DNA from: Halostella salina
Lineage (GTDB): Archaea > Halobacteriota > Halobacteria > Halobacteriales > Natronoarchaeaceae
Reading direction: 5' to 3'
DNA: 64,000 nt
Assembly: GCF_003675855.1 (NCBI RefSeq)
Contig: NZ_RCIH01000001.1
Location: 496,001 to 560,000, forward strand
The notes under the pieces were generated by a model that saw nothing but the letters and a program-made list of their open reading frames with translations, ran no database searches and had not been told where the DNA came from. How positions within the stretch are numbered: the first letter of the stretch is position 1; every line of letters starts with the position of its first letter. Shown one piece after another: positions 22,072 to 32,915 of this stretch. Both the position numbers and the translations under genes were made by a program.

Positions 22072-22184
22072 CAACCACCGCGGCCCACAGCCCACGAACC
22101 CCCGCTATTCCGCCGTTCTGAGTGAGTCGGTCGACTGGTCCGGTGGAACGAAGTGCACGTAACTCAAGAAAAGTGCGAAGCGCC

Positions 22185-22790
22185 ATGCGTACTGAACGCA
22201 ATAGAGACGGGAGCTGGAACGTGTGGATGAGTCGGGAGGAGTACCGCGAGCTACCCCGAGCGGCGGACACCTTCGAGCACGAGATCGCCGTGCGGTTGAT
22301 GGGCGACTGTGGGCTCCGGGTCGCGGAGGTGCTCGACGTGCGGCCCGAGCACATCGACCGGATGAGCGACGGGCGGCACTACGAGCTGGAGGTAGTCGGC
22401 GGGAAGGACACCACCGGCGAGTACGAGGGGGGCAAGCACCGCGAGACGTGGCTCCCCGTCGAGTTCGAGGCGGTCATCAATCGTTACGTCCAGGAGCGTG
22501 GGCTCGCCGACGACGAGGCGCTGATCGACCGCTCGAAGCGGACCGTGCAGTACTGGGTGGAGGAGGCCGCGGCTGATGCGGCGGCGGCGACCGGCGACGA
22601 CGATTACCGGCGGCTGTCGACGCACGACCTTCGGCGCTGCTGGGCGAACCACCTGCTCGTCGAGGAGAACGTGAGTCCGCGGATCGTGATGGCGCTCGGT
22701 GGGTGGTCGTCGTACGATGCGATAGAGCCATATCTGGCTGCTCCTACGGAGGAGAACATCATTGACACTATGGCAGTAACTGAGCTCTGA
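22185..22790 (+). CDS. Short tyrosine recombinase (integrase catalytic domain)
   Basis: 201 aa starting MRTERNRDGSWNVWMSREEY. Catalytic set visible: Arg in GDCGLRVAEVL, Lys candidate in GGKDTTGEYEGGKHRETW, HxxR in THDLRRCWANHLL, Trp in GGWSSYDAIEPYL with Tyr in the last motif. The N-terminal core-binding domain is nearly absent, as in a common class of about 200-aa haloarchaeal integrases. A second recombinase inside the element beside the main integrase at 30829 suggests composite origin. ATG 22185 chosen because upstream codons are basic and low quality. Confidence 0.8.
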   Translation: MRTERNRDGSWNVWMSREEYRELPRAADTFEHEIAVRLMGDCGLRVAEVLDVRPEHIDRMSDGRHYELEVVGGKDTTGEYEGGKHRETWLPVEFEAVINRYVQERGLADDEALIDRSKRTVQYWVEEAAADAAAATGDDDYRRLSTHDLRRCWANHLLVEENVSPRIVMALGGWSSYDAIEPYLAAPTEENIIDTMAVTEL

Positions 22791-22807: not shown

Positions 22808-23044
22808 TTACTCTCCGGCACGTTCCGCCTGAAGGGTCAGTTCTCCTCGTTCGGTGAGTGAATATACCTTTCTTCGACCGTCCTCTCTACTCTCCACGTA
22901 ACCGGCTTCTTCCAGTTCTTGAAGATGCTCGTACACGGTAGGGCCTTGCTTTCCAAGATCTTTGGCGAGAGCGTAGCCGTGGCGGGGTTCTTCATCTAAT
23001 AGAGAGAGAATCCTACGCTTTGCATCAGTCAACGTCAGCCCCAT
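22808..23044 (-). CDS. PadR-like winged-helix regulator of the restriction-modification locus
   Basis: 78 aa, a bare winged helix: LTDAKRRILSLLDEEPRHGYALAKDLGKQGPTVYEHLQELEEAGYVESREDGRRKVYSLTERG. The HGYALAKDL segment is typical of PadR-family proteins, but the usual C-terminal dimerisation helix is missing. Divergent from the methylase-like operon. A 19-bp palindromic box lies 53 bp upstream of its start and recurs 51 bp upstream of the endonuclease gene in the same relative orientation, so it probably controls itself and the endonuclease. Confidence 0.75.
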   Translation of the reverse strand: MGLTLTDAKRRILSLLDEEPRHGYALAKDLGKQGPTVYEHLQELEEAGYVESREDGRRKVYSLTERGELTLQAERAGE

Positions 23045-23087
23045 CTCCTTCAGGGTTGGAATGGGTTGCTGATAAGCGATGGATACC

Positions 23088-23106
23088 CGAATACCTATGC
23101 ATAGGC
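23088..23106 (-). promoter_or_regulatory. 19-bp palindromic control box, copy 1
   Basis: The palindromic core CCTATGCATAGG with a conserved flank; the 19-nt sequence here is the exact reverse complement of 24714-24732. Read towards the regulator gene it is GCCTATGCATAGGTATTCG, centred 53 bp before the regulator ATG. It is also 32 bp upstream of the divergent methylase-like gene start. Confidence 0.75.
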
Positions 23107-23128
23107 GTACAGCTATGTATTGGTGAGA

Positions 23129-23854
23129 ATGGTGAAACGGTCAAGTACCCCAGGTGGTAAACTGGATACCAATCAAATGTATCTCGTCGATTTGAGCCGG
23201 GTGGTATCTGCAGCCGACTCACAGAACGAGGTTCTTGAGAAGACGCGGGGGGTCTGGGATGGGATCTATGATCGAATGGAGCCGACTGAAACACTGTGGG
23301 TCGTTGCTCCAAATGACTACCGCGATGGACGTTTCTGGCCAATTTCGATGGCAGTATCGGATTATGCCCGGCAAGAAAGCTCTCTTACCCTGAAGAACAC
23401 GATCACGGTCCATCAGTGGAACGAACGCGGCGCCGACATGGAATCGGCGTACGATGAGATCCTGCTTTTGGTTAAAGACAAGAGGCAGTATCAGTTCCAC
23501 AAGGACGAAATCCGAGTTGCCCACGTGTACGAGGGGAACGAATGGGGCGGTGAGCGAAAAGAGGGAAATAGCGCCTACCATGATACGGAGGTTCGACGTT
23601 ATAATCCCGACGGGAAGGATCCGGGGAACGTATGGCTGGAGGAGAACCGAACTTTGACTAACAACCAAGAGGTCGACGAAACCGCGTCGATCCCATTGGA
23701 AGAAGCTATTCGTCGATGTGTACTCGTGGGCTCCACTGAGGGTGAGACTGTTCATACCCTCTGGGTGAATGACTTTGAGAGCGTTATCACGGGGGAGAAC
23801 CGGCAGGTCAACCAGCTCGAACCGGAGGAGGTTCAGGTGATACAAAATGACTGA
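23129..23854 (+). CDS. Degenerate DNA methyltransferase-like subunit
   Basis: 241 aa from ATG 23129 (in-frame GTG 23123 and TTG 23120 also possible). The order and wording resemble the middle and C-terminal part of beta-class methylases: TLWVVAPNDYRDGRFWPISM, AYDEILLLVKDKRQYQFHKDEIR, KDPGNVWLEENR, IPLEEAIRRCVLVGSTEGETV. However, the catalytic (S/D)PPY motif is absent, and the expected DPFxGSGTT after ETV is replaced by HTLWVNDFES. It overlaps the intact methylase gene by 8 nt. Best explanation: a catalytically inactive partner for target recognition or AdoMet-independent scaffolding. Resemblance judged by eye. Confidence 0.6.
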   Translation: MVKRSSTPGGKLDTNQMYLVDLSRVVSAADSQNEVLEKTRGVWDGIYDRMEPTETLWVVAPNDYRDGRFWPISMAVSDYARQESSLTLKNTITVHQWNERGADMESAYDEILLLVKDKRQYQFHKDEIRVAHVYEGNEWGGERKEGNSAYHDTEVRRYNPDGKDPGNVWLEENRTLTNNQEVDETASIPLEEAIRRCVLVGSTEGETVHTLWVNDFESVITGENRQVNQLEPEEVQVIQND

Positions 23855-24629
23855 TCTGGATTCTTTCGACAATCTGGAAGTCCACTGGGAGTCGAGCGAG
23901 GACATGAGTGCAGTTGACGACGGAAGCGTTCAATCGGTCATCACATCACCGCCGTACTGGGATCTGAAGGACTACGGGCACGAAGATCAAATCGGGACCT
24001 CCGACGAGTCTTACGAGAAATACCACGACCGAATGGAAGCGGTCTGGAGTGAGTGTTATGACGTACTCTCCGACGACGGGACCATGTGGATCGTCGTTGA
24101 TACAGTAATGGAACGTGGGGATCTCCAGCTCCTTCCATACCACATCGCTCAGCGAGCAGAAGATATCGGATTCGTCCTACAGGATTTCGTCACCTGGTAC
24201 AAGCCCACCGCCATCGCGGGGATGACGGATCGGAACGTCGTCAACAAGAAAGAGTACGTCGTTTATCTCTCGAAGAACCGGGATCACAAGTTCAGAGAAG
24301 ACGGGGTAGAAAATGGGCTTGAAGACCCGGCCATATCGGAAGAGCACCGACTCGGGAACGTATGGCGACATCCCGTGAAACGCGGTTCAGTGGGTCAGAA
24401 TGTTCTTCACAAGGCGCCGTATCCTGCTTCCCTGATCAACCGTATCGTCGAAATTTCCACAGATCCAGGTGACACTGTCCTCGATCCGTTCTTCGGTAGT
24501 GGCACTACTGCCGCTTCCGCACTTGGCCTTGACCGCGCCTGTATCGGATACGAGTTGAACGAGGAGTTCGAGTCGGTGATAGCTGAGCGGCTCGCCTCTT
24601 TACAGCAGCGATCACTCACCGAATTCTAA
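23847..24629 (+). CDS. Beta-class DNA methyltransferase (N4-cytosine or N6-adenine)
   Basis: 260 aa. Catalytic motif TSPPYWDL at residues 33-40 and AdoMet-binding motif DPFFGSGTTAAS at 213-224; motif IV precedes motif I, the permuted beta order. SPPY is most often seen in N4-cytosine methylases, but N6-adenine is possible. No separate long target-recognition domain, which may be why the preceding methylase-like protein exists. Start overlaps it by 8 nt, so the two are co-translated. The endonuclease gene follows 144 bp later behind its own controlled promoter. Confidence 0.85.
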   Translation: MTDLDSFDNLEVHWESSEDMSAVDDGSVQSVITSPPYWDLKDYGHEDQIGTSDESYEKYHDRMEAVWSECYDVLSDDGTMWIVVDTVMERGDLQLLPYHIAQRAEDIGFVLQDFVTWYKPTAIAGMTDRNVVNKKEYVVYLSKNRDHKFREDGVENGLEDPAISEEHRLGNVWRHPVKRGSVGQNVLHKAPYPASLINRIVEISTDPGDTVLDPFFGSGTTAASALGLDRACIGYELNEEFESVIAERLASLQQRSLTEF

Positions 24630-24713
24630 GTCCCAGTTTTTTGCCTGAGACGGCCACTCGGGAATCCGAAGCAGGAAGTGATGAGTGACTACCTTGGATA
24701 TACAGAGATATTT

Positions 24714-24732
24714 GCCTATGCATAGGTATTCG
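24714..24732 (+). promoter_or_regulatory. 19-bp palindromic control box, copy 2
   Basis: GCCTATGCATAGGTATTCG, centred 51 bp upstream of the endonuclease GTG (24774) and just before a TATA-like GATTTATTCGTTATC (24735-24749). Same sequence, orientation and distance as the box in front of the regulator gene. Confidence 0.75.
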
Positions 24733-24773
24733 CGGATTTATTCGTTATCCCACCGCCGTGTCCGGGATTCTAT

Positions 24774-25658
24774 GTGGCTGATAAGAACCCTTGGACTGAC
24801 GATCTCGGATTCACCGATTTAGGAACTGAAGAACGCGAGCAGACGTTAGAGGAAATCAAGGATCTAATCAAGACCCTCGGCAACGAACACCCTGAAATCT
24901 TCGAAGGCCGGGATATCGACGCTGGCGACTACCAACGCGAATTGAAGGACGCCGTTTTCTCTTTGGGCGGGACGTTTCGGCAATCTCACGGCGCGGATAA
25001 CGAGGATATCGTCCGAGACGTTTTCCTCGAACCAGCGGCGGAGCAGGGATACCTCACCTTCGACGATCAGCGCGGTAGCGAACGTATCGATTTCAAAGGC
25101 CGTATCGAGAGTACCGGAGACGTGTTTGCGATGGACGTGAAGGGCGGTGAAGGCCAAAGTATCGGTCACCTGCTTGTGCCGGAGAACACGGATTCCCTGA
25201 TGCTGTGGAGCGAACGGAACGCCCGAAACACCAAATCGCCAGCGTCGCGGTTGAACGAAGTCATCAACCGAGCTGTCCGGTGGGGTCTGAACCAAGCCGA
25301 GGATCCGCAGTTCATGATCATCCGCGACCCGCCGGCAGGCGCCCGAACTGAGAACGGTCGCGTCATCCCAGACCTGGTAGTGTTCCCTACCGAATATCCG
25401 TCGCCTGCGAATCCCGATCCCGAAATGCCCACTTTCGATGACCTCCATTTCGCCGAAATTCTATTCGAGGTGACGACGGGCATCGGAGATCTCGAAGAAG
25501 ATCAGTGTTTGAAACACATCTGGTGGCACGAAATGGAGTACGAGGACCGCGATGGCGGGAAGATCGAGAAAAACATCTACAACGCATACGACGAGAGTAT
25601 TCAACTACAGACACACAGTATCGACTATTCCAGGATTTCAGACGTTGAATCGGGCTAA
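24774..25658 (+). CDS. Putative type II restriction endonuclease, PD-(D/E)xK fold
   Basis: 294 aa from GTG 24774 (MADKNPWTDDLGFTDLG). Nuclease motif: ERIDFKGRI with Asp106, then VFAMDVKGGEGQ with Asp121-Val-Lys123, matching D...(D/E)xK with the common GG after the Lys. The remainder is alpha/beta with no known domain. It is adjacent to a methylase pair and has its own promoter carrying the regulator box, as expected for delayed endonuclease expression in restriction-modification systems. Target sequence cannot be predicted. Confidence 0.7.
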   Translation: MADKNPWTDDLGFTDLGTEEREQTLEEIKDLIKTLGNEHPEIFEGRDIDAGDYQRELKDAVFSLGGTFRQSHGADNEDIVRDVFLEPAAEQGYLTFDDQRGSERIDFKGRIESTGDVFAMDVKGGEGQSIGHLLVPENTDSLMLWSERNARNTKSPASRLNEVINRAVRWGLNQAEDPQFMIIRDPPAGARTENGRVIPDLVVFPTEYPSPANPDPEMPTFDDLHFAEILFEVTTGIGDLEEDQCLKHIWWHEMEYEDRDGGKIEKNIYNAYDESIQLQTHSIDYSRISDVESG

Positions 25659-25935: not shown

Positions 25936-26135
25936 GTTACAGGTAATAAATCGTTCACCGTGAAAACCAGAGAGTCGAGTGCCGACTCGGTCCAGAAGTG
26001 GGCTCGACTCGGAGGAGCCACCCTCCGGCCCCGCTGTCCATACTGGGGGGTCAAAAGGTTTCTCGACTGTCGGGATAATTCCTCCAAGTGTAGAATGCTA
26101 TGCTCGCAAGATTTGGTTCCGTTGGTGAGGAGAGA

Positions 26136-26486
26136 CTACAGTAAGTCGCTATCTTCGTCGACGATCTCCTCATCCCACTCCAAAACAGCTCTCTGGACTG
26201 CGAACTTTCGTTCAGTTATATTCATGACTCGGTTTTCTAATTGGTCGATGTAGTCTTCCAATTCATCTTCATCCTGAATAACAAAGTATCCTTTAGTGGA
26301 GGCAGCCACGGGGAGGTAGTCATCCATAACCAATTCACGTATTATTGCTCTCGTAGAAGGGAAAGAACCGATGTCATCCACACCGATTTCTTCATTGATT
26401 TCGCGGGATGAGATAGGGTTGTCCTCACCTTTGTGATTTAGGAGGATCTGCTTGACTTGTTCTTTTACTGCGGGGTCATCTGCCAT
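26136..26486 (-). CDS. Winged-helix-like protein
   Basis: 116 aa. Residues 5-75 look like a winged helix: VKEQVKQILLNHKGEDNPISSREINEEIGV, FPSTRAIIRELVMDDYLPV, STKGYFVIQDED, followed by a helical region (ELEDYIDQLENRVMNITERKFAV) likely for dimerisation and an acidic tail. Resembles regulators or initiator-associated proteins of haloarchaeal mobile elements. Isolated gene; function uncertain. Confidence 0.62.
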   Translation of the reverse strand: MADDPAVKEQVKQILLNHKGEDNPISSREINEEIGVDDIGSFPSTRAIIRELVMDDYLPVAASTKGYFVIQDEDELEDYIDQLENRVMNITERKFAVQRAVLEWDEEIVDEDSDLL

Positions 26487-26546
26487 AGTACAAATGACTC
26501 TCCCCCGGGCACTTAATAATCTAGTACCGAATTGACAGAAAGATAG

Positions 26547-26753
26547 TTAACGGCCCAGTTGGCAAGCGTAGTAATGCGATTTCAGTTCATTCTCTAAAAC
26601 TACTGCTAAATTCTGTCTACCGGCTTCTCGTGCCTGTTCAATGGCCTGGACAAGCGTTTCATCTAATTCTGCATCAGCCTCGGTGTCATATTCCCTGTCG
26701 GTCGGAAGATCAGTAATCGTGGTACTTTCGTTGACGGATTCTGTGGTTGCCAT
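26547..26753 (-). CDS. Small acidic protein, unknown
   Basis: 68 aa, MATTESVNESTTITDLPTDR..., with a predicted amphipathic helix AELDETLVQAIEQAREAGRQ and VVLENELKSHY at the end. No domain recognised. Clean frame and acidic composition support coding. Lies between two DNA-binding protein genes on the same strand. Confidence 0.5.
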   Translation of the reverse strand: MATTESVNESTTITDLPTDREYDTEADAELDETLVQAIEQAREAGRQNLAVVLENELKSHYYACQLGR

Positions 26754-26858
26754 GCTGGCGTCTATGAGGTCCTCCTATCTAGTTTTTTCGGCGCAGGACC
26801 CCCCATAGCACAAATTGAAGTGTTTCCAGGCAAACTGATTTTGCTCTTGGAGTCTCGA

Positions 26859-27146
26859 CTACAGCAACGCGACCTGCGGGCGCGGCAGCCCACGTGCATC
26901 CAGCTCGCCATCAAGGAACTCCTCGCCCTTCGTCGTGATCTCGTAGTGTCCCCAGTTCTTGCTAACCGGCGCGGCGAGTTCGGCCCGTACCAGCATGATA
27001 CATCGTTCTCTCACCCGTCCCGTCGACGCGTATAACGAGACTTCGCGAGCGATGTAGGAGGGCGACGCCATGTCTTCATTGCGGAGGATTTCAAGCGTGC
27101 GCTCATCGAGGGGGCACATCCAGGTAGCGGCGTGTCGTGTGGTCAT
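26859..27146 (-). CDS. PhiH1-repressor-like winged-helix protein
   Basis: 95 aa. MTTRHAATWMCPLDERTLEILRNE and SPSYIAREVSLYASTGRVRERCIMLVRAELA, then NWGHYEITTKGEEFLDGEL: the winged-helix plan of the haloarchaeal phiH1-type repressors (start with a Trp-Met-..-DERILE segment and end with TxxGxxYLxGE). Ends 7 nt downstream of its paralogue at 27153, and both are on the minus strand. Possibly part of the lysogeny control of the provirus. Confidence 0.7.
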   Translation of the reverse strand: MTTRHAATWMCPLDERTLEILRNEDMASPSYIAREVSLYASTGRVRERCIMLVRAELAAPVSKNWGHYEITTKGEEFLDGELDARGLPRPQVALL

Positions 27147-27152
27147 CTTATC

Positions 27153-27470
27153 TTAGATATCGCCAGTTTCGGATGCTGTTGGCCCGTTATTCTCGCCGTT
27201 GCCGTTGATGTAGGCTTCCTCCTCTGCATTGTACTCGCCGTCGAGGTACGCCTCGCCTTCGTCAGTCATTCCGTACACTCCATTTCCGAGGGGGAGAAGT
27301 AGACCCTTCTCTGCGAGTTTTCGGCACCGTCGAGATACGTGCGAGTTGGAGACGTGGATAATATCGCTATTGGCTAATTCCCCCACAGAGGCGGATTCAC
27401 CTTCTGTCTCGCGGATATACTCCAATATACGGTCATCCCATACTGTCATCCACGTCCCGGAATGTCGCAT
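27153..27470 (-). CDS. PhiH1-repressor-like winged-helix protein, likely lysogeny regulator
   Basis: 105 aa. MRHSGTWMTVWDDRILEYIRE followed by ASVGELANSDIIHVSNSHVSRRCRKLAEKGLLLPLGNGVYGMTDEGEAYLDGEY: close to the phage phiH1 repressor plan. Divergent from the right operon of the provirus (gene at 27684). The intervening region carries the 9-bp direct repeats TTCCCCTAT and the TATA box of the operon, so this protein is the best candidate repressor. A paralogue follows directly. Confidence 0.75.
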   Translation of the reverse strand: MRHSGTWMTVWDDRILEYIRETEGESASVGELANSDIIHVSNSHVSRRCRKLAEKGLLLPLGNGVYGMTDEGEAYLDGEYNAEEEAYINGNGENNGPTASETGDI

Positions 27471-27490
27471 TACCTGTGCTTCTACACTTG

Positions 27491-27538
27491 TTCCCCTATC
27501 AGTTGTCTATTCGGATTTTAGGGTCCAGTTTCCCCTAT
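27491..27538 (+). promoter_or_regulatory. Operator-like direct repeats before the right operon
   Basis: TTCCCCTAT occurs at 27491-27499 and 27530-27538, in the divergent region between the phiH1-like repressor and the operon starting at 27684. The second copy precedes a TATA-like AACATATATGC (27548-27558). Binding of the repressor is inference. Confidence 0.45.
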
Positions 27539-27629
27539 TCACCTCACCATAACATATATGCAGAATGACCCCGTTTGTGCGAGTGGAGCCGCCGACTCGG
27601 TCCAGATGTCGCTCGCCGGTTTCGTCGTG

Positions 27630-27655
27630 CCGGGCGATGCTGGCACATCGCCCGG
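27630..27655 (+). other. Perfect 10-bp stem hairpin in the 5' leader of the right operon
   Basis: CCGGGCGATG, six-base spacer CTGGCA, CATCGCCCGG. If transcription starts about 25 bp after the TATA at 27548-27558, the hairpin lies in the leader, ending 28 nt before ATG 27684. Confidence 0.5.
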
Positions 27656-27683
27656 CTTAGTGCGGCTCCGTGGAGAAACCGCT

Positions 27684-28481
27684 ATGTCGCAATCAAGCAA
27701 CGCGGGCACGAAGGCCCGCACGACCCGAGAAGAGTCGTCTCCCAATAAATCCGACGCCGCGCGGACGGTGCTCATCAACCCCGAGTCCGAGCGCGACGCG
27801 TTCCACCGCGGGCTCGGCTGTGCCAGCAAGGCCAGCGGCCCCACCCGCTCGGTCTCCCTGTCGTGGGCGCGAGAGCAGGGCCTCGACGCCTGCGGCAACT
27901 GCGCGCCCGATCTCGCCCGCGAAGTCGTCACCGACGGCGGCCGCGTCGTCGAGTCCCCCGCCGACGGCGTCGACGACCTCGCCTTCGAGTACGTCCACGA
28001 CCCCCACGACCCCGAGGCGTTCCTCGTCCGCTGCACCACCTGCGGCGAAATCGACGAGTGCTCCGACCGCGGCGACGCCCACAGCCGGGCCGACACCCAC
28101 GGCCTGAACTGCTCGGCCACCGGCGTCACGCCCGTCTCCTCGAAGCGCGTCGCCACCGACGGCGGCCGCGATATCTACGGCTGCGACACGCCCGACTGTG
28201 ACGGCGAGAAGGAAGTCGTCACCCCCGACGGCTACGTCTGCCAAACCTGTGCGGACCAGCTCGCCGCCGAGTACGAGGACGAAGATCCGCGGCTCCTCAC
28301 CGACGGCGGTGAACCTGCCGAGGAGTGCGATCACGAGGTGAGGTACCTGGAGGACTTCCGGGAGCCGTCTTACGGGGATTCTCACAATGGGCGGGGAGAT
28401 CTCAGTCTCGAAGCAGACTGCGCTGCGTGCGGGACGGCCGTTCTTATCGACGCGAAGGTGAACGAGGTGATGGAATTTTGA
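27684..28481 (+). CDS. Cys-rich (zinc-binding) protein of the provirus right operon
   Basis: 265 aa from ATG 27684 (MSQSSNAGTKARTTREESSP); in-frame ATGs at 27558 and 27606 lie in or near the promoter and leader. Cys pairs: CGNC, CTTC, CDTPDC, CQTC and a final CAAC, suggesting several zinc ribbons; the start of the body (ERDAFHRGLGCASKASGPTRSV) resembles conserved haloviral hypothetical proteins. First gene of an operon whose members overlap by 4 nt. Role unknown. Confidence 0.65.
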   Translation: MSQSSNAGTKARTTREESSPNKSDAARTVLINPESERDAFHRGLGCASKASGPTRSVSLSWAREQGLDACGNCAPDLAREVVTDGGRVVESPADGVDDLAFEYVHDPHDPEAFLVRCTTCGEIDECSDRGDAHSRADTHGLNCSATGVTPVSSKRVATDGGRDIYGCDTPDCDGEKEVVTPDGYVCQTCADQLAAEYEDEDPRLLTDGGEPAEECDHEVRYLEDFREPSYGDSHNGRGDLSLEADCAACGTAVLIDAKVNEVMEF

Positions 28482-28849
28482 ACGAGTCTTCCAGCAGCGG
28501 TCAACCCGAGGACCAGTCGATCAACCCGCTCGACCTGCCGTCGTACTGTGACCCCGCGGTCATCCAGACCAAGGCCCGGTCCAACGGCCAGGAAGTCACG
28601 GAGAAGGTGGGCGTCGCCAACGTCGACGTACTCGATTCCGGTGCTGCCCGCGTCCGCCAGTGGGACGGCCGCACGAAGGTCGTCCCCGAGTGGCGCTGGT
28701 GTACGGTCATCTACCTCCGGACCGAGAGCTACGACAAGAGCCCGGAGGACGCCGAAAACCAGTACCTCCACGCCGAGCGCGTCGTCCAGTCCGACCGCGA
28801 GCACGTCCCCGTCGACACCACGCCCACCCGCGAGGAGGTGACGGCATGA
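28478..28849 (+). CDS. Conserved-looking hypothetical protein, provirus operon
   Basis: 123 aa from a TTG start that overlaps the preceding stop (TTGA, 28478-28481); no better start exists downstream that keeps the overlap pattern. Product MNESSSSGQPEDQSINPLDL then a beta-rich domain (VIQTKARSNGQEVTEKVGVANV, VVPEWRWCTVIYLRTE). No family recognised. Ends in an ATGA overlap with the next gene. Confidence 0.6.
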   Translation: MNESSSSGQPEDQSINPLDLPSYCDPAVIQTKARSNGQEVTEKVGVANVDVLDSGAARVRQWDGRTKVVPEWRWCTVIYLRTESYDKSPEDAENQYLHAERVVQSDREHVPVDTTPTREEVTA

Positions 28850-29094
28850 GCGACGCCGACGCGACCCGCGAGACGAAGACCTTCCACCGCGCGGTGTGTC
28901 CCTCCTGTGACACCGAGAACGGGCTGAACCGCCCGTCAACGCTTCGCGTCCGGGCGAAGGTCGACCGCAAGATCCACAACAACAAGCATCACAGCGGCGC
29001 GCCCGTCGCCGAAGTCGAGACCTTCGACGCCGAGGCGATCGGGGCCGTGCCCACCGACGCGCCGCCCCTGCCGGGCGAGGAGGTGGACGCATGA
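28846..29094 (+). CDS. Small zinc-finger-like protein, provirus operon
   Basis: 82 aa, MSDADATRETKTFHRAVCPS... with one CPSC pair followed by basic and His-rich sequence (RKIHNNKHHSG), possibly completing a metal site. ATGA overlap upstream and downstream (29091). Function unknown; position next to the PCNA gene suggests a DNA-metabolism role. Confidence 0.6.
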   Translation: MSDADATRETKTFHRAVCPSCDTENGLNRPSTLRVRAKVDRKIHNNKHHSGAPVAEVETFDAEAIGAVPTDAPPLPGEEVDA

Positions 29095-29996
29095 GCCGCG
29101 CCGTCGACGCCGACGACCGGACCGACGACCTCGCCGCCGACGCCGACGAGGATCCCGCCGTCAGCATCCTCACGAACGGCGACCCCATCCGGTCGCTGAC
29201 CGAACTGCTCGACCCCGTCGCCGACGAGTTCCGAGTGCGGTTCGACGAGGACGGCATCCACACGCGGGCCGTCGACCCGGCCAACGTCGCGCTGGTCGAC
29301 CTGACCGCCCACGCCCAGGGCTTCGACCGGTTCGATGTCCACGAACCCACGACGTTCGGCCTGTCGCTCCCGGCCTTCGAGAACGCCGTGACGTGGGCGC
29401 GCAAGCGCGGCGGCGACGGCGACCCCGTCGCCATCGACGTGTTCGACGACCCGGCCCGCATGCGTGTCCGGGTGACTCGCCCCGACCAGGAGATCACCCG
29501 CGTCACGGAGTGGTTCGGCGTCGACCCCGACATGCTCCGGGAGGATCCCCACATCCCGACGGATCTCACGCTCCCCTGCCGCGCGGACCCGAGCGTGAAG
29601 GCGTTCAACCAGGGCATCAAGGCCGTCGAGAGCAACCACGACCACGCCTTTGTCACCCGCGACGACTCGACGTTCGTACTCGGGAGTCAGGCGGGCGGCG
29701 ATACGACGCCCTCCGACGACGAGGACGGGCGGACCGACCCCGAGGACGCCGTGATGTTCGCCAACTGCGCGTGGGCCGAGACCGACGACGTGGAACCGTT
29801 CTCGACGGTGTTCAGCCTCGACTACCTGACGGACATCGCAACCGGCATCAAGCGCGGGAAGGCCGACCGGCTCCTCGTGAAGTGGGGCGACGAGTTCCCC
29901 GCGAAGTTCGAGATCGAACACGACGACTGGGGGTTCGAGGCGACGTACATGCTCGCCCCGCGAATCAAGAAGGACGACCAGGAGGGATCTGCGTGA
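29091..29996 (+). CDS. Provirus-encoded PCNA-like sliding clamp
   Basis: 301 aa, longer than the usual 247 aa haloarchaeal PCNA because of an acidic N-terminal extension (about 25 residues) and an insert with a Glu/Asp-rich loop (about 205-225). PCNA landmarks: ILTNGDPIRSLTELLDPVADEFRVRFDEDGIHTRAVDPANVALVDL at the first domain and LVKWGDEFPAKFEIE...ATYMLAPRI at the C-terminus, almost the canonical PCNA end. A clamp for its own replication, or to recruit host polymerase, is likely. Overlaps both neighbours by 4 nt. Confidence 0.85.
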   Translation: MSRAVDADDRTDDLAADADEDPAVSILTNGDPIRSLTELLDPVADEFRVRFDEDGIHTRAVDPANVALVDLTAHAQGFDRFDVHEPTTFGLSLPAFENAVTWARKRGGDGDPVAIDVFDDPARMRVRVTRPDQEITRVTEWFGVDPDMLREDPHIPTDLTLPCRADPSVKAFNQGIKAVESNHDHAFVTRDDSTFVLGSQAGGDTTPSDDEDGRTDPEDAVMFANCAWAETDDVEPFSTVFSLDYLTDIATGIKRGKADRLLVKWGDEFPAKFEIEHDDWGFEATYMLAPRIKKDDQEGSA

Positions 29997-30832
29997 CGCT
30001 GAGCGCGTTCCCCTACATCGGCGGTAAGACCCGATTGGCGGACTGGATTACCGACCACTTGCCGCCGCACACTACATACGTCGAACCGTTCGGCGGCTCC
30101 GGGGCGGTGCTGCTGAACAAGCCCCGAAGCAAAGTCGAGGTGTTCAACGACAAGGATGACGACGTGGTGACGTTCTTCCGGGTTGTACGCCAGCGCCCGG
30201 AGGAGCTGGCCGACTGGTGCCGGATGACGCCGTTCTCCGAACAGCTCCACGGTGAGTGGGCTGATCAGTTCTTCGGCGGTGACCGCCCTGACGACGAACT
30301 CAAGCACGCCGGGCGGTGGCTGTTCCTCCGCTACAGCCAGTACGCTTCGAAGGTATCGGGGAAGAGCGGCTTCAAGCGTGAGAGTCCAAACTACGAGACT
30401 GGCAGTAAGAACGCACGAAATTGGGCCAACGTCCCTGTCCGGATTGACCAGGTAGCCGACCGCTTCCGCGGCGTCTCCGTGGTCAACGAGGACTATCAGA
30501 GGATCATCGAACGGTACGACTCCGACGAGACGGTGTACTACCTTGACCCTCCGTACTTCGGGAACGAAGATCTCTATCGGGAGGCTGCGGATCACGCTGC
30601 CCTCGAGCAGACGCTCCGGGACATCGACGGCTACGCAATCGTCAGTTACTCCGAGATCCCGCCGGGGCTGTACGAGGACTGGCACACCGTCGAGAGGACG
30701 ACCCACCACTCCGCTGCGGGCAACGGCAAGGAGGCCGAGGAGCGGCTCCTGATGAACTTCGACCCGGAGACGGTCGAACCGTGGGTACCAGCACAGCAGA
30801 CGGCGGCGAGTGAATGGGGGTCGGAAGCGTGA
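29993..30832 (+). CDS. Dam-type (D12 class) DNA N6-adenine methylase
   Basis: 279 aa from GTG 29993, overlapping the PCNA stop (GTGA). AdoMet motif FPYIGGKTRLADWI and VEPFGGSGAVLLNKP at the N-terminus, catalytic DPPY in VYYLDPPYFGNE. This alpha-order D12 family methylates adenine, typically in GATC-like sites. As an orphan methylase in a provirus operon with PCNA and integrase it probably protects viral DNA or marks replication, separate from the restriction system at 23-25.7 kb. Confidence 0.88.
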   Translation: MTLSAFPYIGGKTRLADWITDHLPPHTTYVEPFGGSGAVLLNKPRSKVEVFNDKDDDVVTFFRVVRQRPEELADWCRMTPFSEQLHGEWADQFFGGDRPDDELKHAGRWLFLRYSQYASKVSGKSGFKRESPNYETGSKNARNWANVPVRIDQVADRFRGVSVVNEDYQRIIERYDSDETVYYLDPPYFGNEDLYREAADHAALEQTLRDIDGYAIVSYSEIPPGLYEDWHTVERTTHHSAAGNGKEAEERLLMNFDPETVEPWVPAQQTAASEWGSEA

Positions 30833-31863
30833 CCGACGACCTCGAACCCATCACGCCGGAGGCCGCGCTGGAGTACTATCTCGACGACCGCCGGTACGAC
30901 CTCGCCGACTCGACGTACCGGAGCCACGAGGCCCGGCTGCGTTCGTTCATCGAGTGGCTGGAGGACCAGGGCATCCACAACATGAACGACGTGGACCTGC
31001 GGACGCTCCACTCCTACCGCGTGTACAAGCGGGAGGACAACGGGGAGGACGACCCCTGCAACGCGGTCACGATGCAGGGGCAGATGTCCACGATACGGAA
31101 GTTCATGGAGCGGTGCGTCGACCTGCACGCGGTTCCCGAGAGCCTCCCCGACCGCATCCGGCTCCCGACGGTCCGGGCGGAGGACCAGAGCGACGACACC
31201 AAGCTCGAACCCGAGCAGGCGCAGGCGACGCTTGACTTCCTCCGGCAGTACCGGTACGCGTCGAAGGTCCACGTTACCCTGCTCCTGATGTGGCGAACCG
31301 CGGCGCGGCGGGGCGGCATCCGCGCGCTCGACGTGGGCGACTTCGACGCCGACGAGAACGCGCTGTGCTTCCGCCACCGCCCCGAGGAGGGAACGCCGCT
31401 GAAGAACGGGCCGAGCGGCGAGCGCGACGTGGCGATCCACGAGCACACCGCCGCCGTGCTGGCGGACTACATCCAGAGTCCGAACCGCGACCAGGTGACC
31501 GACGAACACGGGCGGCGGCCGCTCATCACGACCACCCACGGCCGCCCGTCGCTCTCGACGATACAGAACTGGGTCTATCGCATCACTCGCCCGTGCGTCA
31601 TCGGGGACCCGTGCCCCCACGACCGCGACCCGGAGACGTGCAAGGCGATGGACAACGACTTCGCCAGTACGTGCCCGTCGTCGCTGTCTCCACATCCGGT
31701 CCGGACGGGGTCGATCACTGCCCACCGCGACAAGGGAACGCCCCGGCAGGTGGTGAGCGACCGCGGCGACGTGAGCGAGGAGATCTTGGAAAAGCACTAC
31801 GACAAGGCGTCGAAGCGCCAGCGGATGCGCCGGCGTCAGGAACACATCCCGGAGGACCTGTAA
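30829..31863 (+). CDS. int: Integrase, XerC/D-type tyrosine recombinase
   Basis: 344 aa from GTG 30829 (overlapping the previous stop, GTGA). N-terminal SAM-like core-binding domain (ALEYYLDDRRYDLADSTYRSHEARL) and catalytic domain with Arg in MWRTAARRGGIRAL, HxxR in SPHPVRTGSITAH, and Tyr in EEILEKHYDKAS. A Cys-rich insert (CVIGDPCPHDRDPETCKAM) may bind zinc. It ends 63 bp before attR, the usual position for archaeal integrases whose att site lies outside the gene. It very likely catalyses integration into tRNA-Ile. Confidence 0.92.
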   Translation: MTDDLEPITPEAALEYYLDDRRYDLADSTYRSHEARLRSFIEWLEDQGIHNMNDVDLRTLHSYRVYKREDNGEDDPCNAVTMQGQMSTIRKFMERCVDLHAVPESLPDRIRLPTVRAEDQSDDTKLEPEQAQATLDFLRQYRYASKVHVTLLLMWRTAARRGGIRALDVGDFDADENALCFRHRPEEGTPLKNGPSGERDVAIHEHTAAVLADYIQSPNRDQVTDEHGRRPLITTTHGRPSLSTIQNWVYRITRPCVIGDPCPHDRDPETCKAMDNDFASTCPSSLSPHPVRTGSITAHRDKGTPRQVVSDRGDVSEEILEKHYDKASKRQRMRRRQEHIPEDL

Positions 31864-31926
31864 CCATGCCTGCGAACCCCCAAACAGAGCGAGTCAGCGA
31901 CCCGTGGGAAAATCGGAAGACACAGA

Positions 31927-31941
31927 CCGCGTTGGCCCATC
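31927..31941 (+). other. attR of the integrated element
   Basis: Exact copy of attL CCGCGTTGGCCCATC. Similarity continues imperfectly for about 23 bp to the right (compare 11183-11205 with 31942-31964). Confidence 0.88.
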
Positions 31942-31979
31942 CCGAATTCTCACGCTTCTCAGCCTCCATAGAAGGTCGG

Positions 31980-32915
31980 TCACTCGCCGCTGAGCACGTC
32001 GCCGAGTTCGCCGCCGATCTCGGCGATGGCGTCGTGGGTGCGGTCCACGCCGCGGAGCGTCAGGAACCCGTGGACCATGGCCTCGTAGTTCTCGTAGCGC
32101 ACGTCGACGCCGTCGCCGGCGAGCTGGTCGGCGTAGGCTTTCCCGCCGTCCCGGAACGGGTCGAACCCGGCGGTGACGACCGTCGCGGGGGCGACGCCGG
32201 CGACGTCGCCGGCGTTCGTCGGGTCCGCGTAGGGGTTGCGCTCGTGGATCTCGCTTTCGTAGTAACACTCCCGGAACCAGTCCAGATCGGCCTCGTCGAG
32301 GACGATACCGCTGTGCTCCCGAACGGAGGGCTGGTCCGGCTCGACGCCGACGCCCGGGTAGAGCAGCGTCTGGTGGTCGATCGCGGGCCCGTCGCGCTCG
32401 GCGGCCATGAGCGCGGTGACGGCGGCCAGCGCCCCGCCGGCGGAGTCGCCCGCCACCGCGAGCCGGCCGTCGCCCGCGACCGAGTCGGGGTTCGCGGCCG
32501 CCCACTCGACGGCGGCGTAGGCGTCCTCGACCGCCGCGGGGAAGGGGTGTTCCGGGGCGAGCCGGTAGTCGACGGAGAGGACGGCACAGCCGCTCTCCCG
32601 GGTGAGGTGCCGGCAGAGCCAGTCGTGTGTCGCGATGCTCCCCAGCACGAACCCGCCCCCGTGGAAGAAGACGACCGTCGGGAACGGGCCGTCGGCGTCG
32701 GGCACGTAGAGCCGGGCGTCCAGATCCCCGGCTGGCCCGGGGATCGTCCCGTCGACGGTCGCGCCGACGCTCGGCGGGTTGCGGTTCCGGACCCACATCA
32801 TCGCCCGGGAGAACTGCCGGAGCAGCTTCAGCCCGCGGCGGCTGTGGGGCAGCGGTATCAGGGCCTGTCGCTCGACCGCGGCCTTCGCCTGCGGATCGAT
32901 CTCGTCTGCGTGCAT
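31980..32915 (-). CDS. Alpha/beta-hydrolase esterase, hormone-sensitive-lipase family
   Basis: 311 aa. HSL-family markers: FFHGGGFVLGS (oxyanion hole HGGG), YRLAPEHPFPAAVEDAY, nucleophile elbow GDSAGG, then DPFRDGG (catalytic Asp) and VHGFLT (catalytic His). Cytoplasmic carboxylesterase acting on short acyl esters. First chromosomal gene to the right of the provirus; its 3' end lies 38 bp from attR and is intact. Confidence 0.9.
   Translation of the reverse strand: MHADEIDPQAKAAVERQALIPLPHSRRGLKLLRQFSRAMMWVRNRNPPSVGATVDGTIPGPAGDLDARLYVPDADGPFPTVVFFHGGGFVLGSIATHDWLCRHLTRESGCAVLSVDYRLAPEHPFPAAVEDAYAAVEWAAANPDSVAGDGRLAVAGDSAGGALAAVTALMAAERDGPAIDHQTLLYPGVGVEPDQPSVREHSGIVLDEADLDWFRECYYESEIHERNPYADPTNAGDVAGVAPATVVTAGFDPFRDGGKAYADQLAGDGVDVRYENYEAMVHGFLTLRGVDRTHDAIAEIGGELGDVLSGE

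Follow-up and report, generated by a model that had tools for sequence, protein, structure and literature searches.

In bacterial type II restriction–modification (RM) systems, C proteins bind upstream of their own promoter and activate both it and the restriction gene (R); at higher levels they repress via an adjacent site, and some repress the methylase gene (M) too (PMC12707154). In Esp1396I the M promoter has an operator as well (PMC3758141). RptR, a repressor of 79 aa that belongs to type I RM islands in bacteria, acts on three repeated palindromes (PMC12255303). In the haloarchaeon Haloferax volcanii, OxsR activates from sites upstream of the BRE/TATA and represses from sites downstream of it (PMC9426492). 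A controller of the kind analysed here is not described in the searched portions of an archaeal RM survey (PMC10609329) and a halobacterial survey (PMC6471742); in the available part of the former, a 'C' category appears just in a supplementary profile table. The preliminary description of the locus knew of no archaeal system built this way, and our literature search likewise found none.

The locus lies in the window, the whole 64,000-nt stretch of Halostella salina DNA analysed here. It holds a regulator gene (REG), two methylase-fold genes (M1 and M2) and a putative endonuclease gene (R), with the following features:

22808..23044, minus strand: REG, single-domain winged-helix regulator of 78 aa, with orthologues (PF03551 PadR, 7e-14)
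23071..23075, minus strand: TATA-like TTATC of the REG promoter, 24 bp past the box centre as at R, in conserved columns
23076..23087, minus strand: REG operator site 3, weak, GGTATCCATCGC, in the +18-bp register, beside the TATA and over the BRE position
23094..23105, no strand assigned: REG operator site 2, the main box CCTATGCATAGG, with at least 10 of 12 matches in 15/15 loci
23112..23123, no strand assigned: REG/M operator site 1, weak, GCTATGTATTGG, in the −18-bp register, immediately ahead of M1
23129..23854, plus strand: M1, degenerate beta-class methylase paralogue (PF01555, 2.6e-10), without motif IV and motif I
23847..24629, plus strand: M2, predicted N6/N4 DNA methyltransferase (PF01555, 8e-50), with SPPYWDL...DPFFGSGTT
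24697..24708, plus strand: R operator site 1, weak, GATATACAGAGA, in the −18-bp register, the best-scoring offset in R promoters
24715..24726, plus strand: R operator site 2, the main box CCTATGCATAGG, with 8–12 of 12 matches in 14/14 loci
24733..24744, plus strand: R operator site 3, weak, CGGATTTATTCG, in the +18-bp register, beside the TATA
24745..24749, plus strand: TATA-like TTATC of the R promoter, at the same box offset as in the REG promoter
24774..25658, plus strand: R, probable restriction endonuclease of an unclassified family, from its linkage to M1–M2 and an invariant D106-x14-D121-x-K123

The 19-mer GCCTATGCATAGGTATTCG occurs exactly twice in the window, at 23088–23106 on the minus strand and at 24714–24732 on the plus strand, confirming the coordinates and opposite orientations reported in the preliminary description. 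No further copy with up to three mismatches was present in the window, and 100 shuffles gave none. The two exact window copies of the core CCTATGCATAGG are those of the two boxes, and the whole 3.7-Mb H. salina genome contains no third. The spacing of 53 and 51 bp to the start codons given earlier holds if counted from the centre of the 19-mer; from the palindrome centre, it is 55 bp for the regulator and 53 bp for R. The similar TATA-like stretch after each box was also borne out, with TTATC beginning 24 bp past the palindrome centre at both promoters.

A search with the R protein against 392 haloarchaeal genomes and two whole families recovered the cassette with all four genes in 13 further haloarchaeal species (14 including the window), plus one decayed copy (G363). 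The gene order is invariant in the intact loci, with REG on one strand, followed by M1–M2–R on the other. Identity to the window proteins ranges over 65–92% for REG, 54–74% for M1, 73–85% for M2 and 65–86% for R. The cassette is patchily distributed (13 of 378 good genomes, 12 of 86 genera), and its carriers include Halopiger djelfimassiliensis, H. goleimassiliensis, Natrialba chahannaoensis, Halorubrum laminariae and Haloarchaeobius iranensis. In Haloquadratum walsbyi C23, the single carrier in the plasmid search, it resides on plasmid PL100 (G014 copy, L090), where R is annotated as 'hypothetical protein'. Shared DNA flanks or a common insertion site were not found beyond the close pair L028/L029 and one stretch between L021 and L027. 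This combination of patchy distribution and mostly unshared flanks is typical of horizontally moving RM cassettes. Viral contigs contained no relatives of M2 or R, and phages none of R.

Several features of individual loci are also recorded here. In the decayed copy (L030), M2 and most of R are deleted and REG is frameshifted; its box still matches at 10 of 12 positions. On PL100, type I RM genes (a methylase and two S subunits) lie ~3 kb from the cassette. In the window, integrase genes are found on both sides of the cassette (22122–22790 and 30814–31863), and inspection of 26000–32000 by eye revealed small winged-helix ORFs, a clamp-like gene (29091–29996) and an ORF with its end at 30832 that resembles a D12 methylase. 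These surroundings suggest an integrated mobile element.

Ahead of REG, the box is kept with 10–12 of 12 matches in all 15 loci, the decayed one included; ahead of R, 8–12 positions match in each of the 14 loci. Two R promoters were re-anchored: in L021 the highest-scoring match was off position, and the site at the geometry shared by the other loci was used instead (8/12); in L027 the R start was set to the codon in alignment with its counterparts, at a distance of 53 bp. In L018, L021, L023, L028 and L029 the box is less well matched ahead of R (8–9/12) than ahead of REG, and control of R may be looser in these species. The palindrome centre is 53–56 bp from the REG start codon, with exceptions of 50 bp (L026) and 58 bp (decayed L030), and 50–53 bp from that of R. 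At most REG promoters TTATC or TTTTC starts 24 bp past the centre, and the R promoters across loci have TTATC or a similar AT-rich element past the box. With the TATA ~27 bp ahead of the start codon, the REG and R transcripts would be leaderless; leaderless transcripts are common in haloarchaea. The exact 12-mer occurs 12 times in the 392 genomes, nine times inside the cassette and three times in genomes without it. Carrier genomes have no exact copy outside the cassette, and this restriction therefore points to a cassette-encoded binder. The preliminary description had staked its proposal in part on the boxes being kept in homologous loci, and in all 14 intact loci both their position and their sequence are conserved at both promoters.

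The box proved to be part of a larger array that the preliminary description did not mention. When the box was scored at every offset, the two best secondary positions were −18 and +18 bp, independently for the REG and the R promoter sets. Column permutation outside the main site failed to reproduce the ±18-bp result in 2000 trials for each promoter set (0/2000), and the outcome was likewise 0/2000 for any common symmetric spacing. The flanking sites are weaker than the central box: information amounts to 1.68 bits (REG) and 1.42 bits (R) at the main site, 0.87–1.19 bits at the flanking sites, and 0.65 bits (REG) and 0.14 bits (R) in the far-upstream columns. The downstream site ends at the start of the TATA-like element. 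On the divergent side, the box centre is 27–36 bp from the M1 start codon in 14/14 loci, mostly 29–30 bp; assuming a 5′ leader of 0–30 nt, the TATA position of M would sit inside the array. The REG–M1 array thus probably covers the M core promoter, so that all three transcription units would be wired.

REG exceeds the gathering score of the PadR family in the Pfam search, but the ArsR HTH_5 and TrmB models also pass their own cut-offs. The earlier label 'PadR-like' stands as a sequence match and applies to the winged-helix domain alone. In all 14 homologues REG is 76–81 aa long, stops after the wing and lacks the C-terminal helical dimerisation domain of PadR. An AlphaFold2 (AF2) model shows the expected HHH-beta-beta-beta order at low confidence (pLDDT 57.5). 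No HTH_3/XRE model is among the best 25 Pfam matches. Across the homologous loci, REG is the sole DNA-binding regulator always linked to the cassette. We consider it very likely that REG binds its boxes, and there are good grounds to expect that it controls R.

M1 and M2, which overlap by 8 bp and fill 23.1–24.6 kb, went unmentioned in the preliminary description. M2 carries what type II RM systems require of a catalytic methyltransferase, namely the PF01555 match with SPPY and DPFxGSGTT, and its nearest solved structures are a putative modification methylase (2zie) and CcrM; by its motifs, M2 is a predicted catalytic beta-class N6/N4 methyltransferase. M1 lacks both motif IV (SPPY) and motif I (DPFxGSGT) in all 14 homologues, whereas many other positions show strong conservation across species. 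Because both motifs are gone in every species while so much else is retained, M1 probably assists M2 structurally or in DNA recognition, and the two likely form a heterodimeric methylase with a dead subunit.

R lies downstream of M1–M2 in every intact locus. Its homologue alignment contains, besides the invariant D106-x14-D121-x-K123, several invariant blocks, and the motif would fit a candidate PD-(D/E)XK nuclease. Searches of Pfam, PADLOC, NCBIfam, PHROG and the PDB gave no relative, a profile search of the PDB gave nothing credible, and an AF2 model from six sequences was poor (pLDDT 52.8), with no Foldseek match in the PDB at E ≤0.001. As the ORF matches no family, the word 'endonuclease' originally attached to 24774–25658 was a deduction; from linkage and motif, we are nevertheless strongly inclined to regard R as the cognate endonuclease.

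How far, then, does the locus resemble the described systems? As in C-controlled type II RM systems (PvuII, Esp1396I, Kpn2I, Csp231I), a small regulator gene is located within the RM cassette, and a palindromic operator, present in all intact loci, lies ahead of the regulator gene and is linked to R. There is a likeness of anatomy, too, in a strong site with a weaker neighbour close to the core promoter, an arrangement that would allow activation followed by repression, and the operator at the M promoter has a parallel in Esp1396I. However, C proteins are helix-turn-helix proteins of the XRE/HTH_3 type, whereas REG is a winged helix with PadR, ArsR and TrmB matches. C-protein systems co-transcribe the regulator and R, whereas here the two genes are encoded on opposite strands, 1.7 kb apart, and under separate promoters. 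R comes with a promoter and a copy of the array of its own, the sites number three with an 18-bp spacing where C systems have two, and the promoters are of the archaeal BRE/TATA type, unlike the bacterial ones. Because neither the fold nor the operon layout of the C-protein family was found, REG is, as judged by sequence, outside that family. The C-protein-like logic with a PadR-like regulator, as put forward in the preliminary description, is thus supported by the arrangement, with boxes at the regulator and R promoters in 14/14 intact loci.

Other systems share single traits with the cassette. RptR of E. coli is, like REG, a small single-domain regulator beside RM genes with three regularly spaced palindromes, and is autoregulatory; it differs in its four-helix bZIP-like fold, its 6-bp palindrome over the −10 box, its association with type I RM, its demonstrated role as a repressor and its bacterial host. 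OxsR is a single winged-helix haloarchaeal regulator as well, but it belongs to the TrmB family, carries a redox cysteine and acts globally in oxidative stress, with no RM link. In the available part of its description, BrxR of BREX is a winged-helix regulator whose gene accompanies a defence system that includes a methylase, and differs in being a bacterial WYL-domain protein without a REase/MTase pair (PMC9122589). In M.SsoII and Ecl18kI, a transcription factor role within the RM system governs the choice between divergent promoters, as here, but the repressor is the N-terminal HTH of the methylase, whereas REG is a separate gene.

We favour, with moderate confidence, an archaeal controller circuit that is C-like in function and lies outside the C-protein family. 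The cassette would be a mobile type II-like RM unit with its own controller. REG would bind the strong central palindrome, probably as dimers, and the weaker sites 18 bp on either side, in two arrays, one between REG and M1 and the second ahead of R. For REG and for R, the strong site lies just upstream of the BRE/TATA, a position from which haloarchaeal single-winged-helix regulators can activate, and the weak downstream site abuts the TATA; for the divergently transcribed M genes, the core promoter itself would be covered by the array. Upon entry into a new cell, M1–M2 would be produced first. Accumulating REG would then fill the strong sites, turning REG and R on and M off, and at high REG levels the TATA-proximal sites would fill, capping REG and R. 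Gene order, box conservation, spacing and genome-wide specificity are the established parts of this circuit; that REG is the binder, that it dimerises and the sign of its control at each promoter are what we infer. Activation of R by REG appears somewhat more probable than repression, and 'REG and R on, M down' is favoured because of the asymmetric position of the array and the OxsR precedent in Haloferax.

The main competitor is a REG that acts as a plain repressor of all three units, in an RptR-like three-site negative feedback relieved by infection or by dilution on transfer. Three tandem sites, the last beside the TATA, are what such a repressor would use; the 79-aa RM-linked RptR does so with three repeated palindromes (PMC12255303), and REG has no ligand domain. 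The site 3 beside the TATA fits this reading equally well, and sequence cannot separate activation from repression. However, the strong site at REG and R is upstream of the BRE/TATA, the position from which OxsR activates in Haloferax (PMC9426492), whereas RptR sites overlap the −10 box, and equal repression of M and R would yield no delay of R relative to M. We regard plain repression as less likely than the activating circuit.

The remaining explanations dispense with REG as the binder. The boxes could be bound by a different, host-encoded regulator, the cassette thereby plugging into a host regulon, and the 12-mer does precede an unrelated ~200-aa winged-helix gene in two cassette-free genomes (L086, L087). 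Against this, exact boxes in carriers are confined to the cassette, the box travels with the cassette across several families, and REG is the only DNA-binding regulator constantly linked to it, which makes a host regulon very unlikely. If the palindrome were instead the recognition site of the RM system, promoter methylation could regulate the genes in the manner of CfrBI; the box is palindromic and contains ATGCAT, and such control exists in bacteria (PMC3874152). Yet no 4- to 6-mer is common to all 29 box regions (ATGCAT is found in 16, TGCA in 18), and the TATA spacing and 18-bp array would stay unexplained, so this highly improbable reading was rejected. The location of the boxes in promoters at a fixed TATA distance would also suit a duplication arisen by chance, or a core promoter element that no dedicated regulator reads, but almost no other promoter in the 392 genomes carries the exact 12-mer, shuffles gave none, and the box is conserved in 14 species, leaving this idea hardly credible. 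REG as the dedicated binder remains our preferred reading.

Mini proteins resembling REG (40–56% identical) were also examined outside the cassette, at 27 loci. Seven of them are beside a SacI-family restriction gene (L079, L081, L096, L099, L100, L103 and L104; PF09566 9.8e-49 in L079), which is fragmentary in L081 but complete at the others. Those six loci also have a D12 methylase, in the order M–R–regulator, and R and regulator promoters of the SacI-type cassettes have a loose ATATCGGTTTTAGCCGATATA-like element in common; its statistics are weak (0–27 of 200 shuffles reach it), and a shared element is at best suggestive. In L084, L085, L101 and L108 the REG-like gene is divergent to a NucS-like nuclease (PADLOC candidate class PDC-S11), while one locus is near a type IIG enzyme and another near HsdM/HsdS. 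These associations offer a lead that REG-like regulators are a recurring component of archaeal RM systems. In the two cassette-free genomes the exact 12-bp box is directly ahead of the ~200-aa winged-helix gene (L086:5930–5941; L087:901–912). L087 has additional box copies 37 bp on either side (~2×18). In L086 the next gene looks nucleotidyltransferase-like by eye, without a Pfam or NCBIfam match, and the pair is possibly an AbiE-like toxin–antitoxin.

The archaeal RM literature searched is silent on how the host is spared cleavage by a newly arrived restriction enzyme while its DNA is still incompletely methylated. An evenly balanced proposition is that archaea have evolved their own class of RM controllers: stand-alone mini winged-helix proteins, unrelated to C proteins, whose multi-site operators order M before R, and which serve at least two unrelated RM types (M1/M2–R and SacI-type D12) and occur beside other restriction or nuclease genes, here with a dead methylase partner and a new endonuclease family. 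If true, the cassette would supply a new endonuclease family, a pseudo-methylase pairing and a regulator that could serve as a tool through its 18-bp modular operator, as well as a compact ~3 kb system for studying ordered expression upon horizontal transfer in archaea. The bacterial controller circuit would then have an independently built archaeal counterpart on eukaryote-like BRE/TATA promoters.
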